The position numbers and the translations under genes are program-made. The notes below the pieces were generated by a model, which was not told the origin of the DNA, searched no databases, and worked only from the letters and a program-made list of their open reading frames with translations. A DNA stretch of 40,710 bases from Candidatus Altarchaeota archaeon (GTDB lineage Archaea; SpSt-1190; DYHY01), in the NCBI GenBank assembly GCA_030622515.1, contig JAUXGB010000002.1, forward strand, positions 1 to 40,710. The letters run 5' to 3'. Within the stretch, counting starts at the first letter, position 1, and each line of letters opens with the position of its first letter. Positions 1,558 through 26,192 of this stretch are shown here, in pieces.

Positions 1558-2718
1558 ATGAAAATAGCCCACTTTAGCTGGGAATCGCTCCACTCCATAG
1601 CGATTGGAGGGGTAGCGGCAGCCGTAACAGAACTTGCTGCAGCCCAAGCCCGCAAGGGTCACGAGGTCCACGTCTTCACCCGACCTGCGCCAGGCCAGCC
1701 CTACTTTGAGGAAATCCACGGCGTCCGCTACCACAGGTGCCCCCACCAGCTCCACCCAAACCTGATTGATGAGATGGGAAACATGTCCCGCTCACTGGTC
1801 CACCACTTTTTCGAAACAGAAAAAATAATTGGCGGCTTTGACATCTGTCACTTTCACGACTGGCACGTTGTTGATGCCCTCCACGACATAAAGAACGCCG
1901 GCCGCCGCTGCGTCTTCACCCTCCACTCAACCGAGTACGGAAGATGCGGGAACAACCACTTCAACGGAAGAAGCGACATAATCAAGGGAAAAGAAGGCTA
2001 TGGCGCCCACAAGGCAGACCGGGTAATTGCCTGCTCATTCGCGATGAAGGGGGAAATCGAATGGCTTTACGGGGTTCCCCACTGGAAGACCAAGATGGTT
2101 CGCAACGGAATTTCCGCCCACCAGTACAACGGCTGGCTTGACCCGGCAGAAATCAAGGCAAGGTACCAGATTGGTCCTCTTGACCCAACCGTCCTCTTTG
2201 TCGGGCGAATGTATTCCCAGAAAGGGCCTGACCTGCTTGTCGAAGCCATTCGCTCTGTCCTCAACGACAAAGGAAACGCCAAGTTTGTCTTCGCGGGAGA
2301 CGGACCAATGAAAAACGACCTCCAGAACCGCGCCAACCAGCTCGGCGTTGGCCACGCCGCTAGGTTCCTTGGCTATGTTGACGAAGGAGTCAAGCGAGCC
2401 CTGCTCAAGTCGTGCGATTGCGTTGTGCTCCCTTCAAGAAATGAGCCATTCGGAATAGTCGCCCTCGAGGCATGGGCATCCGGCAAGCCAGTAGTCGCCC
2501 TCCACGGGACCGGCACAAGCGAACTAATCTGGGAAGGTGTCACCGGCCTGAAAGCCTACCATAATCCTGAATCAATTGCTTGGGCAGTAAAGAACCTCTT
2601 CCACGACCACGAACGTGCCCGCTGGATGGGACGAAACGGAAGGCATGGCGCAGAAACCGAATACTCCTGGGATAAAGTTGCCGGAGATATGCTTGGCGTC
2701 TATGGGGAACTATTCTAA
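1558..2718 (+). CDS. Glycosyltransferase family 4 (glycogen/starch synthase-like)
   Basis: 'MKIAHFSWESLHSIAIGGVAAAVTELA', 'LFVGRMYSQKGPDLLVEA', 'PSRNEPFGIVALEAWASGKPVVA' GT-B motifs. Confidence 0.88.
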   Translation: MKIAHFSWESLHSIAIGGVAAAVTELAAAQARKGHEVHVFTRPAPGQPYFEEIHGVRYHRCPHQLHPNLIDEMGNMSRSLVHHFFETEKIIGGFDICHFHDWHVVDALHDIKNAGRRCVFTLHSTEYGRCGNNHFNGRSDIIKGKEGYGAHKADRVIACSFAMKGEIEWLYGVPHWKTKMVRNGISAHQYNGWLDPAEIKARYQIGPLDPTVLFVGRMYSQKGPDLLVEAIRSVLNDKGNAKFVFAGDGPMKNDLQNRANQLGVGHAARFLGYVDEGVKRALLKSCDCVVLPSRNEPFGIVALEAWASGKPVVALHGTGTSELIWEGVTGLKAYHNPESIAWAVKNLFHDHERARWMGRNGRHGAETEYSWDKVAGDMLGVYGELF

Positions 2719-3753
2719 AACTTCTGCCGCCGGGCGATGAACCAAGTGCCGGTACTGGTTTGTGCATGCAGGCCCACTAATGTCAACATCGAAATCAATC
2801 CTGTTTTTTTCAGCATATCTTTCAATTGGGTGTATTGAAGCCTTGAAGCAGTCTGCACTGTGGGTCGAGTCTGTCTCTATTTTCAAAGAATAGTTTCCTT
2901 CGCTGTTTTTCTGCAAGTTTGCATAAAATCCAAGCTTTCTTCCATTTTCTTTAGCTATCAACTTACCTTTAACTTCAAGTTTCTGGAAAATGTCAAAGCT
3001 TGGTGTGAATGATTCTGCAAACAGCGGTTCAAGCGACTCCTCAGCAAGGTTGGTTTTCTGAAGGGGTTTGTCTTCTTTACCATTGGAAGGCGTGTCCCCT
3101 TTAGGCTTAACATCGTAATCGGTAAAGAGTGAAATGTTTCTGTCGGCCCCTTCGAGCATAATGTCGCCTTCAAGCTTAGGGTAAGGGGGAGCTACCGTGA
3201 CATTTGATTTTGTATGTCGCGGGTCAGCATAAACCGAAATCTCCTCAGCAACCATTTGAATTATCGTTTCTTCAGGAGTCACTGCGGGTTCTTTTGAAAG
3301 AATCAGGTTTGCAAAAGGAATGTTTTTCAAAATCACCTGGTAAGACCGTCCCACAACCTTTTCATCACTAATGTATTTTGCACGATTAGCGGCAGTTTCC
3401 TTAATCTCCTTTTCCCTTTGCCACTCGAGTCGGGGTTTTGCCGAAACATCAACTCCTTTGCGCCTCAAATTCATGGTTTTCAGTTGGTTTGAAGTTTTCT
3501 GGTTTTCAGTTGGAGCTTGAACTTCGTTAGTAAGTCCCGGAACAAGCTTGCGTCGTGCCTCATTGTATTTTTCAAGCGCGTTTGCATAGTCTTTATAATC
3601 GTCTATTGTTGGCGCCCAAGGAAGTTTCGGTTCCTCAAGAGAGCCAAGGATAGAACCATTTCTCTTCATACCATCCGTCCCTGCCATAGCCCGTGAATAG
3701 CTTTTCCGTATATAAAACTTTCTTTGATTGCCTACTAAAAAAGGGTTAATCAT
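2710..3753 (-). CDS. Hypothetical protein, 347 aa; last gene of a coupled three-gene operon
   Basis: Long ORF; ATG (3753-3751) overlaps the stop of the preceding small ORF as ATGA. Confidence 0.7.
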   Translation of the reverse strand: MINPFLVGNQRKFYIRKSYSRAMAGTDGMKRNGSILGSLEEPKLPWAPTIDDYKDYANALEKYNEARRKLVPGLTNEVQAPTENQKTSNQLKTMNLRRKGVDVSAKPRLEWQREKEIKETAANRAKYISDEKVVGRSYQVILKNIPFANLILSKEPAVTPEETIIQMVAEEISVYADPRHTKSNVTVAPPYPKLEGDIMLEGADRNISLFTDYDVKPKGDTPSNGKEDKPLQKTNLAEESLEPLFAESFTPSFDIFQKLEVKGKLIAKENGRKLGFYANLQKNSEGNYSLKIETDSTHSADCFKASIHPIERYAEKNRIDFDVDISGPACTNQYRHLVHRPAAEVLE

Positions 3754-3905
3754 TCGGGGTTGTAGACCTCAGGATGGCTGTATTTCGGGTTAGGCTCCGG
3801 GGCTTTGCTGTGGGTGAAAACATAACTTGGCTGTTCCTTTTGGAGACGCTCTATCAGCGGCACGTAGTCGCCATGAACCCTCCAGTCGTCTTTTGTAAAT
3901 ATCAT
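3750..3905 (-). CDS. Hypothetical microprotein, 51 aa (MIFTKDDWRVHGDYVPLIERLQKEQPSYVFTHSKAPEPNPKYSHPEVYNPE); not in the supplied ORF track
   Basis: Fills exactly the gap between two co-directional genes, with ATGA overlaps at both ends. Confidence 0.65.
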   Translation of the reverse strand: MIFTKDDWRVHGDYVPLIERLQKEQPSYVFTHSKAPEPNPKYSHPEVYNPE

Positions 3906-4459
3906 CCTTCAACACTCGCATAGATCGGGTCGCTTGTCCATGTAACATCATATCCAAGCGTTTCTCCGGCAGACTTAATCCCTTCCGCAATGTGACTGAA
4001 ATCCCTCGAGCAGTTAAGCTCGCACTTCCTGCTTGACCTGACATATGCCGAAGCCGTCGGCTTGCCTGACACCTGGATTCCAATATCGACATCTTTTGCC
4101 TCATTTAGTCTTGCAAGAATATCATAACTGTCAATCCCTTCAGGGCCCATGACCGACTTCCCGTCGGTTTCAAGCTGGACCTGATTTTCTAGCCCAAGGC
4201 CTGCGCCAACCTGAACCTTGACAGGCTCATAAATCCTGTTGAACTGTTCAATGACAGACCTTGCCATCGGGTCGCCGTGATAGACCTTAAGCAAGTCAAA
4301 ACTCATCCCTATCAGGTGGACCGGCTCCTCATTCCAGTTCTTAAGAAGCTCTGAAAGCCCTTCGCCCGGCGGAAGCTCAGCCGCATTGCCAAGAAGCTCG
4401 ATAACCGCCGGATGAAATGTCAGCTCTTCCTTTCCCATTGAAACCCAATACTTCCCCAC
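3902..4459 (-). CDS. Hypothetical protein, 185 aa; first gene of a coupled operon
   Basis: Long ORF; TATA-like TATTATAAAGG upstream on the minus strand. Confidence 0.7.
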   Translation of the reverse strand: MGKYWVSMGKEELTFHPAVIELLGNAAELPPGEGLSELLKNWNEEPVHLIGMSFDLLKVYHGDPMARSVIEQFNRIYEPVKVQVGAGLGLENQVQLETDGKSVMGPEGIDSYDILARLNEAKDVDIGIQVSGKPTASAYVRSSRKCELNCSRDFSHIAEGIKSAGETLGYDVTWTSDPIYASVEG

Positions 4460-4497
4460 CTTTATAATACTTTAGAGTAATAGCTACTAAATAGAGG

Positions 4498-5580
4498 TTA
4501 AATCTTCCCCAATTCGGCTGCTGCAAGAAGGAACATTGAGTGGCTCCAGGCTAAAGGCAGGATTGAGATTGGCTTGCCGTTCTTGACCTGCTCGCTGAGG
4601 AAGCCTTGGTGGTTGGTCAGGCCGAGCTTCCACATCTTGTTTGCCTTCCTCCTGTCCCCAAGCAGCTTGTAGACTATTGCGGCTTCGAAGTTAAGCAGCG
4701 GCCAGGCGCCAGCCCCCTTCTTCCTATGGTGCCGATGAGCGATTTCTCCTTCGTAAGCGTCAAAAGGGTAGCGAAGCAGCCCGTCCTTTGTCACACAACC
4801 CTCTTCGATAGCTTTCAGCGTCTTTTTCCACCGCTTGTCTCCCGGCTTGACAAGGCCGAATGGCCAGACAAGGAAAAGCATTGAGGAATCAATTATCGGG
4901 TCGCTATAGTTCTTCCCGTGGCACCGTGCGAAAAACTTTCCGTTAAAGCTTGCCAAAGCTCTTGCCTTCAATTGCTTGGCAGTCTTTACCCAAGCCGCCT
5001 TGGGCTTTCTTCCAACAACCTTCCACAACTCAATCGTATCCAGAAGGCCTTTGGCGCATGCTGCTGCCGAGAATGTGAAGATTTCCTGGGCGTCGGCAAA
5101 GGCGTGCCTCTCCTCCCAAAGGTCTTCGCTTATCCCGCGGAAGCTTTTCCCGTCCCAGTGCTTAACAATGCCGTCCGCAAGAAGTTGCGCAAGTTTGAGG
5201 TTTGTCTTCTCGGTGTAGGCGAAGTGGAAAGCAATCGCCTGAAGGACCAGCCCGTTCTGGTCAGGCTGGAAAGCACCCTCAAAGTAGCGTCCGTTGGTTG
5301 AGTAGTTCTTCCTGAACACTCCGTACTCGCTCAGCCCTTCCACCCGCTCAAGGCACCAGTCAAAGAACGCTTCGGGAATTTTGTGAAGCCCTGCTACATT
5401 TGCAGCCATGCAGGAAAAGGCGGCATCCCGCGGCCAGACGTAACGATAGTCCTTAACCGTTGTTGGGTAAATGTTCAAATCGGTGTTCGAAGCGACAAGT
5501 GCCCCATTCTCAAGGGAGCACCTTCCAAGGACCTCGAGGCTTTTCTTGTAAACCTTCTTGAAAGTGGTGTCCATAAGCAA
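4498..5580 (-). CDS. Glucoamylase / glycoside hydrolase family 15
   Basis: 'YRYVWPRDAAFSCMAAN', 'QPDQNGLVLQAIAFHF', 'RWKKTLKAIEEGCVTKDGLLRYPFDAYEGE'. Confidence 0.85.
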   Translation of the reverse strand: MLMDTTFKKVYKKSLEVLGRCSLENGALVASNTDLNIYPTTVKDYRYVWPRDAAFSCMAANVAGLHKIPEAFFDWCLERVEGLSEYGVFRKNYSTNGRYFEGAFQPDQNGLVLQAIAFHFAYTEKTNLKLAQLLADGIVKHWDGKSFRGISEDLWEERHAFADAQEIFTFSAAACAKGLLDTIELWKVVGRKPKAAWVKTAKQLKARALASFNGKFFARCHGKNYSDPIIDSSMLFLVWPFGLVKPGDKRWKKTLKAIEEGCVTKDGLLRYPFDAYEGEIAHRHHRKKGAGAWPLLNFEAAIVYKLLGDRRKANKMWKLGLTNHQGFLSEQVKNGKPISILPLAWSHSMFLLAAAELGKI

Positions 5581-5618: not shown

Positions 5619-6815
5619 ATGGATGCATCCTATGTTCCTTGGCTTCACATGCACCAGCCGATGGTCTGGCAGGGCGGCAAGCTTGTTTCCAACCTTGAAA
5701 AGATGCTGGATTCTCCCGACAGCCAGCAGTCTGGCGACGCAAAAAAGATGCTTCGCGCTTACAAGAACCCTGCAACCTACTGCTACCGATTATCGAAAGA
5801 GGGCTTTAGCCCGAAAATGATGCTTGACTTCTCAGGGCTCCTGCTTGAAACCCTGTCTTCCATGGGCGAACGCCTTGCAACAGTTGAGGTTGATGGGGAA
5901 AAAGTCGGTGACATCATTGCCGCCTACAAAAAAGTTTTCAAAGCCTACCCGAAAGCGATTGAGTTTGCAGGGACAGCCTACAGCCACTGCTACTTCCCGA
6001 TAACCCCCAAGGTTGATTGGGAAATGCAAATCACCGAGTGGCGGAAAACCTTTTCCAAGCTGTTCGGCTCTTCGGCTCTTAAGCAGGTGCACGGCTTCTG
6101 GCTGCCTGAGCAGGGTGTTCCCGGAGGAAAGGATTTAGAGCGGCTGATTCACGAGGTGAAGAAAGCAGGCTACCATTGGCTCATTCTCCCGACAGAAGCG
6201 ATTGAGGGGGAGAAGAAGTTCTCCTGGGAGAAGCGGGTCAGCTACTGCGTAAAGCCATGGATACTTAAGCAGGGAAAAGAAAAGATTCCTGTCATCTTCA
6301 GGATGAGGTACGACTTTATTGACCAGCAGGCAGGATGCGATGCGAAAGGGGTTTACGAAAAAGCACTTTCAATCCAGCACCATTCCGGCAAGGTGCCTGC
6401 CCTCGTTTGTCCTGCAAGTGACGGGGAGAACGGGAACGTAATGATGAACCAGTTTTTCAAAGACACCTTTGTCCCCTTCTTCACAAAGCTCGAGAGCAAG
6501 AAGGTGGGCTCGATGCTTGTCAGCCAGTTCCTTGAAAAGTACTATCCATACGGCCCGAAGGAAGAAGTCAAGTTGAAGGTTCAGGGAGGCTCCTGGACAG
6601 GCAGCCATTCCAACTGGACCCAAGGGGAGCGGCGGGAGCAGCTGAGGCAAAAGGTAGAAGCGCTTTCGAAGAGCTTTCACAGGAAAAAGCAGTCGGAAAA
6701 AGCCCTTCAGGCCCTGCTGCTGGCCGAGACATCATGCTACCTCTACTGGAATGTTGACTTCTGGTTTGACCAGGGGGAGATGATGGTCAACTACGCGAAG
6801 AGGCTTCAGAAGTAG
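5619..6815 (+). CDS. GH57-like glycoside hydrolase
   Basis: 'VPWLHMHQPMVWQGGKL', 'HGFWLPEQGVPGGKDLERLI', C-terminal 'LLLAETSCYLYWNVDFWFDQGE'. Confidence 0.78.
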   Translation: MDASYVPWLHMHQPMVWQGGKLVSNLEKMLDSPDSQQSGDAKKMLRAYKNPATYCYRLSKEGFSPKMMLDFSGLLLETLSSMGERLATVEVDGEKVGDIIAAYKKVFKAYPKAIEFAGTAYSHCYFPITPKVDWEMQITEWRKTFSKLFGSSALKQVHGFWLPEQGVPGGKDLERLIHEVKKAGYHWLILPTEAIEGEKKFSWEKRVSYCVKPWILKQGKEKIPVIFRMRYDFIDQQAGCDAKGVYEKALSIQHHSGKVPALVCPASDGENGNVMMNQFFKDTFVPFFTKLESKKVGSMLVSQFLEKYYPYGPKEEVKLKVQGGSWTGSHSNWTQGERREQLRQKVEALSKSFHRKKQSEKALQALLLAETSCYLYWNVDFWFDQGEMMVNYAKRLQK

Positions 6816-7243
6816 CGGTCTATCGAAGGCTTGACCTCGTACCTGCCAACAGTGAAGGTTTTCTCGACCGGCTTGCACCCATCGACAAAGATGAGCGCCC
6901 TGTGCTTGCCAGTCTTTTCAGCAGGGTAAACTGCGTAGAACTTGCCTTTCTCCTCAACTATCGGCTGCATAGCATCCTGCCCCAGCTCATATGGGTCTTT
7001 GCCAAGCTTCCGAAGGCTTACATTTGGGAGGAAGATTCTGGCAGTTCCCGAAGGGGAGACAACCACCACGGCGAGCTTCCGGCGACGGCCAAAGTATCCT
7101 ATTGCAAACCTGTTGTTCTCGAATTCAACAAAGGCTTCCACAGGCTGTCTAGCCAGCAGCCGCTTAATAACCTTACCCAAGACAAAACTTAAAAAGGGGC
7201 TCGAAGGCGAAAGCTCTATGGCTAAAGAAGAGAAGAAAAACAA
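6806..7243 (-). CDS. Hypothetical protein; start uncertain (a TTG near 7180 is more likely than the listed ATG, which overlaps S27ae)
   Basis: ORF ends convergently with GH57; the N-terminus as called overlaps the adjacent divergent ribosomal gene. Confidence 0.5.
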   Translation of the reverse strand: MFFFSSLAIELSPSSPFLSFVLGKVIKRLLARQPVEAFVEFENNRFAIGYFGRRRKLAVVVVSPSGTARIFLPNVSLRKLGKDPYELGQDAMQPIVEEKGKFYAVYPAEKTGKHRALIFVDGCKPVEKTFTVGRYEVKPSIDRYF

Positions 7244-25149: not shown

Positions 25150-26034
25150 ATGACAGACTACCAGCTAGCACTTGCGAAGGGAAAGAAGGTTTCGCGGGCC
25201 GCAGCCTTCCTTCAGTTTCTCAAGCAACACAACATAAAGGACGAACAAACCTACCGCAAGGCAGCCATAACTGCATCACTTATCGCCTTCTTCATCATCT
25301 TCCTGCTCTCCAACCTTTGGATTTCACTCTTCACCTCTTTCTTCCTCTTCTCGCTCCTCTTCAACCTCCCTTCTTATCTGGCAAGTAAGTACCGGGAGGA
25401 GCTTGAATGCCACCTTGTTCCTGCCCTCTATGCGGCTGCAAGAATGCCAAAGGGCACACCGTCCTCAAAAGTGATTTCCCGGCTGGCCGAGATGAAAGAG
25501 TTCGGCCTGCTGAGCGAGCTCTTCGCCAGCATCAACGCTCACTATTCAAAGGCATCAGGCCGCCACTCCTATTCCCACATCTTCAGGAAATTTTCATCAA
25601 CAATCGGAAGCAGCAAGCTGGAGAGAATGTTTGAAATCCTCAATCTAGGCCTCAAGCACAACAAGGACGCCAACAGCATCCTGCTGAAAAGTGCAGAAGA
25701 CCTTGAGGACATCGAACTTCTTCTGAGGCAGCGCCGCAGCCAGTTGACCTCACAAAAACTAACCCTCCTCTTCAGCTCCGCCATCCTCCTGCCGGCAATC
25801 CTCTCGGCAACCTCGGAAATCCTATCCATCCTTGTTTCCTCAGGCGTTGGCAATTTCGCCAACCCACAAGTCCTCTTTAACTCCCTTCTGGGCTACACCC
25901 TTCTCGAAGCAATCTTCGCGGCAGTCTGGCTCTCCTATTCAATAGAACAGCGAAAAAGCGCCCTTGCCCTCTATCTTCCAACGTTAACTTTATTAGCAAT
26001 GGCTGTTTTCACCATCGTAGGTGGCCTAATATGA
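25150..26034 (+). CDS. Type II secretion system F-domain membrane protein (294 aa)
   Basis: 'ECHLVPALYAAARMPKGTPSSKVISRLAEM', multiple TM segments. Confidence 0.75.
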   Translation: MTDYQLALAKGKKVSRAAAFLQFLKQHNIKDEQTYRKAAITASLIAFFIIFLLSNLWISLFTSFFLFSLLFNLPSYLASKYREELECHLVPALYAAARMPKGTPSSKVISRLAEMKEFGLLSELFASINAHYSKASGRHSYSHIFRKFSSTIGSSKLERMFEILNLGLKHNKDANSILLKSAEDLEDIELLLRQRRSQLTSQKLTLLFSSAILLPAILSATSEILSILVSSGVGNFANPQVLFNSLLGYTLLEAIFAAVWLSYSIEQRKSALALYLPTLTLLAMAVFTIVGGLI

Positions 26035-26192
26035 GAGCTCTATCTTCCCTGGAATGGCTTGTAATCTTCATAATAGTCGTTGGCGCCCTCTCGGTAGTCA
26101 TCGGCACCTTCTACGACGTCTGGAACCCTGTTCAGGCCAACGCAACGGCAGCCTCAGGCAACCTGCTGGACGCCCTTGGAAACCTTGGCTAA
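26031..26192 (+). CDS. Type IV pilin-like small protein, 53 aa; not in the supplied ORF track
   Basis: Translation MRALSSLEWLVIFIIVVGALSVVIGTFYDVWNPVQANATAASGNLLDALGNLG; ATGA overlap with the F-domain gene; class III signal-like RA|LSSLE with E at +5, then a hydrophobic helix. Confidence 0.7.
   Translation: MRALSSLEWLVIFIIVVGALSVVIGTFYDVWNPVQANATAASGNLLDALGNLG

Follow-up and report, generated by a model that had tools for sequence, protein, structure and literature searches.

The three minus-strand ORFs between the GT4 and GH15 genes of the window (the whole stretch of DNA analysed, 40,710 nucleotides) probably make up two neighbouring units of orphan genes, each with its own transcript, in a mostly leaderless archaeon. 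Unit A would hold a 178-aa and a 51-aa gene joined by an ATGA overlap, and unit B a single 325-aa gene. The original prediction had assigned the ORFs of 185, 51 and 347 aa to one three-gene operon of fixed stoichiometry, translationally coupled through two ATGA junctions. The ORFs, both ATGA strings (3905–3902 and 3753–3750, minus strand) and the position between GT4 and GH15 are present exactly as it described them (Table 1). GT4 is convergent and its end shares 9 nt with that of the 347-aa ORF (2710–2718); GH15 lies upstream on the same strand as the ORFs. Promoter positions, codon signals and junctions were read from the sequence.

Table 1. Coordinates of the ORFs, the proposed genes and the signals between GT4 and GH15
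Feature	Position in window	Strand	Basis or remark
GT4	1558–2718	plus	flanking gene, convergent to the three ORFs
347-aa ORF (ATG start)	2710–3753	minus	read from sequence
325-aa orphan protein gene, proposed leaderless start ATG 3687 (347-aa ORF minus 22 codons)	2710–3687	minus	hexamer score 0.279, promoter
Probably spurious N-terminal extension of 347-aa ORF (codons 1–22)	3688–3753	minus	codon score; holds unit B promoter
BRE AAAGAAAG and exact TATA box TTTATATA (3716–3709)	3709–3724	minus	unit B promoter, centre ~25 nt before ATG 3687
T6 run, possible unit A transcription terminator	3737–3742	minus	between 51-aa stop and TATA box
51-aa ORF (ATG start)	3750–3905	minus	read from sequence
51-aa orphan small protein gene (candidate)	3750–3905	minus	hexamer score 0.453
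ATGA stop/start overlap joining 178-aa and 51-aa genes	3902–3905	minus	sequence
185-aa ORF (GTG start)	3902–4459	minus	read from sequence
178-aa orphan protein gene, proposed leaderless start ATG 4438 (185-aa ORF minus 7 codons)	3902–4438	minus	codon use, promoter
Unit A promoter (BRE/TATA, TAAAGTATTATAAA region)	4461–4473	minus	~26 nt before ATG 4438
GH15	4498–5580	minus	flanking gene, upstream

Predicted promoters and start codons of the two proposed units

Ahead of 283 genes, the start codon is preceded at constant spacing by an A-rich BRE (−34 to −32) and a TTTATAAA-like TATA box (−29 to −22). This fixed spacing is a signature of leaderless archaeal transcription, and the genome appears to use mostly leaderless mRNAs. 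The promoter motif was trained on the genome's own upstream regions with the 178-aa and 325-aa genes left out, and 7,878 ATGs served as background for its score. The hexamer model behind the codon scores was trained on 521 genes from this genome.

The promoter in front of ATG 3687 (AAAGAAAGTTTTATATA) scores 14.7, a value that none of the 7,878 background ATGs attains and that is better than 99% of promoters. Exact TTTATATA sites are rare, only 20 occurring in 1.7 million strand-bases of the genome; five of them have a downstream ATG-started ORF of at least 200 codons, unit B included, and the ATG stands at 25–27 nt in all five. The ATG at 3753, which overlaps the stop of the 51-aa ORF, scores −5.9, or background. 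Codons 2–22 of the 347-aa ORF score −0.336 in codon use, less than any 21-codon stretch of the 325-aa body and lower than 97.5% of gene N-termini, and the first 22 codons look non-coding. The 325-aa region itself is gene-like but AT-rich. Promoter and codon use thus agree on ATG 3687 as most likely the real start, the 347-aa start being an artefact of choosing the longest ORF. An ATGA at 3753 needs only a TGA preceded by A and 22 open codons, so its chance occurrence would be unremarkable; in sampled contigs 31 of 272 gene ends (~11%) have a TGA stop in this context.

The start of the 185-aa ORF is likewise better placed downstream, at ATG 4438, to judge by its promoter score of 12.8, which only 0.0001 of background ATGs equal and which is better than 94% of promoters. 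The GTG at 4459 scores −9.2, at background level. The resulting 178-aa region has a gene-like hexamer score of 0.546. Both units resemble archaeal genes with leaderless mRNAs, whose BRE/TATA lies ~26 nt ahead of the start codon, and in this distance they match the genome average; for such genes, their predicted promoters show nothing unusual.

Further features separate the large gene from its neighbours. The sole T6 run on the minus strand between 2500 and 4700 is that at 3742–3737. Of 682 stops, 31 (4.5%) have a T6 within 40 nt, versus 1.9% of random 40-mers, which gives modest support to a role as the terminator of unit A. The run would be a weak terminator signal, and transcription might continue from unit A into unit B. 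Third-position GC (GC3) is 0.54 in the 185-aa ORF, 0.61 in the 51-aa ORF and 0.40 in the large gene, the 17th lowest of 522 genes (genome mean 0.60, sd 0.08).

These observations bear directly on the three-gene operon, in which both ATGA overlaps would be used and a 185/51/347 complex of fixed stoichiometry would serve polysaccharide metabolism. Both ATGA strings do exist, and most of each of the three ORFs is gene-like in its codon use. Against such an operon, a top-1% promoter lies within the claimed N-terminus of the 347-aa protein while ATG 3753 stays at background, the first 22 codons resemble non-coding DNA, T6 stands between the 51-aa stop and the large gene, and the GC3 of that gene differs. 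Given this promoter, the T6 run, the differing GC3 and the 62-nt gap between the 51-aa stop and ATG 3687, the proposal that one operon fixes the stoichiometry of all three proteins is not supported, and we consider it very unlikely. Its glycan connection is one of position: GH15 comes with a promoter candidate of its own (ATG 5574), separate from that of unit A, GT4 points the other way, and GH15 was matched in one of nine relatives of the class, weakly. Position is the only tie observed between the three proteins and a starch/glycogen role.

The candidate 51-aa gene and its junction with the 178-aa gene

The hidden 51-aa gene of the original prediction has gene-like codon use and is likely real. 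Its hexamer score of 0.453 per hexamer exceeds 99.9% of 2,401 shadow ORFs of 40–70 aa and falls at the 39th percentile among 50-codon pieces of real genes, while the other five frames over the same stretch score negative. An earlier hexamer model from one third of the genome gave an agreeing result. The promoter score of its ATG at 3905 is −13.9, as expected for an internal cistron. Were the ORF untranslated, positions 3750–3905 would be a 3' untranslated stretch, and this is unlikely: the ORF has no relatives or family in the collections searched, and ORFs of 40–70 aa are plentiful (392 are intergenic), yet the hexamer contrast with shadow ORFs and with the other frames speaks for translation. 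Half of the same-strand gaps in the genome are at most 17 nt, so an empty 150 nt would be unusual.

The 178/51 overlap at 3905–3902 looks like a genuine gene junction, with gene-like codon use in the reading frames on both sides of it. ATGA overlaps are frequent in the genome: of 361 same-strand pairs lying close together, 55 have one. A different origin of the same arrangement is a single gene of ~229 aa split near 3905 by a frameshift, through assembly error or decay. At the junction the coding signal switches frame, as it would also do in a split gene, and with ~11% of gene stops in ATGA context an accidental ATGA is not rare. The junction GAAGGATGATATTTAC, however, has no homopolymer or slippery site, ATGA is used by many real close pairs, and the 178-aa ORF keeps a high codon signal right up to its stop. 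A split gene is accordingly rather unlikely, and a pair of overlapping genes remains the preferred reading.

From these signals we infer how the two units might be transcribed and translated. Unit A would be a bicistronic mRNA (4438–3750) that begins at ATG 4438 and encodes the 178-aa and then the 51-aa protein, the latter being made by termination-reinitiation through the ATGA overlap. Unit B (3687–2710) would use its own strong BRE/TATA promoter within 3724–3709 to produce a soluble 325-aa protein from ATG 3687, with no translational coupling to unit A. In Haloferax volcanii a spacing of 13 nt cuts reinitiation by 60% and one of 22 nt abolishes it (PMC10666635); with a 62-nt gap, coupling between the 51-aa and 325-aa genes is not expected. 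Of the two couplings originally proposed, that of 178/51 is consistent with codon use and the overlap, and that of 51/347 gives way to an independent promoter and a start 62 nt downstream. The 178/51 pair resembles the termination-reinitiation pairs with a 4-nt overlap on one strand that are common in archaea (Huber et al. 2019, PMC6728339; 2023, PMC10666635). Its coupling is predicted from sequence. The 51/347 junction, with its likely start moved 62 nt downstream, departs from these pairs.

The best-supported working idea about function is that the 178-aa and 51-aa proteins most probably work as partners, perhaps in a small heteromer. It builds on the 45.2% of closely spaced Haloferax pairs that encode subunits of one heteromeric complex (PMC10666635), a rate that comes from another archaeon and serves as a prior only. 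On the two-unit reading, the 178-aa/51-aa genes are an ordinary orphan pair beside an independently transcribed orphan gene, and the locus gives no pointer to a new mechanism. The chief value of the analysis is a correction: in an archaeon with leaderless mRNAs, placing gene starts by the longest ORF can create an ATGA junction, and an operon, that are not there. As for the 51-aa gene, it makes a plausible candidate for an overlooked small protein.

Orphan proteins and a segment resembling RqcH

Searches of Pfam, NCBIfam, PHROGs and PADLOC returned nothing above noise for any of the three proteins, which bears out the earlier statement that no family is recognisable in them. Scans of genome contigs, viral contigs and phages, and of 394 archaeal genomes with nine other members of the class among them, turned up no relative of the 178-aa or the 325-aa protein; for the 51-aa ORF, viral contigs and 21 genomes gave none. 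A PDB sequence search with the two larger proteins gave noise only. As far as these searches reach, all three are orphan proteins from a lineage that has been sampled poorly. Structure prediction, which the original prediction had put forward, did not clarify their nature: single-sequence AlphaFold models have a pLDDT of 38 (178-aa) and 40 (325-aa) and are uninterpretable, as are their Foldseek hits (GNATs and fluorescent-protein fragments). GNAT acetyltransferases are numerous in the list for the 178-aa model, with a best E of 0.08 that is not interpretable at this mean pLDDT. A C-terminal kinship of the two larger proteins, considered from a shared beta-beta-beta-alpha-beta prediction, was rejected, sequence similarity not being significant. 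One match, to a P-type ATPase encoded by genome G007, was dismissed as chance.

Within the genome itself, phmmer found no paralogues of the proteins except a segment of the ribosome rescue protein RqcH. Residues 115–152 of the 178-aa protein form a gapless alignment with the first 38 residues of the RqcH C-terminal half (NF041120; G000:C57, L002/L033), with 46% identity over 39 aa (E ~4e-4 for one genome). DNA identity of the segment is only 52%. In comparison with RqcH/NFACT proteins, the 178-aa protein (185-aa ORF) has no NFACT-R, NFACT-N, Pfam or NCBIfam hit, and the RqcH family model does not detect it. The match to most other RqcH proteins of the class is not above shuffles. The 178/51 pair might be a lineage-specific two-subunit protein whose larger subunit carries a short strand-helix element related to the beginning of the lineage's separate RqcH C-half and which acts near ribosome-associated quality control; this is a long shot.

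RqcH is itself split in this genome. The N-half (profile about 2–335; L034, G000:C66:6656-7597) and the C-half (378–644; L002/L033, G000:C57:13857-14615) are separate genes on different contigs, and the loci of other class members are L107–L124. Full-length RqcH was found in none of the ten genomes of the class. Both halves are present in eight class genomes, with the C-half alone seen in G006 and the N-half alone in G008, and the break falls at about the same profile position. No published report of a split RqcH turned up in a brief literature search. The N-half gene L034 lies just downstream of putative ScpA and ScpB genes, which we take to be such from reading their sequences, and is followed by a gene for a membrane protein. 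A membrane protein ORF of similar appearance is also found at the N-half locus of several class relatives.

Other genes in the window and genome

Two further ORFs were noticed in the window. The first, at 6806–7243 (minus strand), encodes 145 aa with gene-like codon use (score 0.32) and no Pfam hit, and it overlaps the ribosomal protein S27ae gene, as called from its longest ORF, in that gene's 5' part; S27ae probably starts further downstream. The second, at 26031–26192 (plus strand), is an intergenic ORF of 53 aa whose score of 0.57 ranks it with the most gene-like of the genome's small ORFs. Elsewhere, clusters of genes with very low GC3 (0.20–0.39, versus the genome mean of 0.60) occur in L069 (15465–18730), L062 (1501–4825) and L083 (7371–8993), and these are possible acquired islands.
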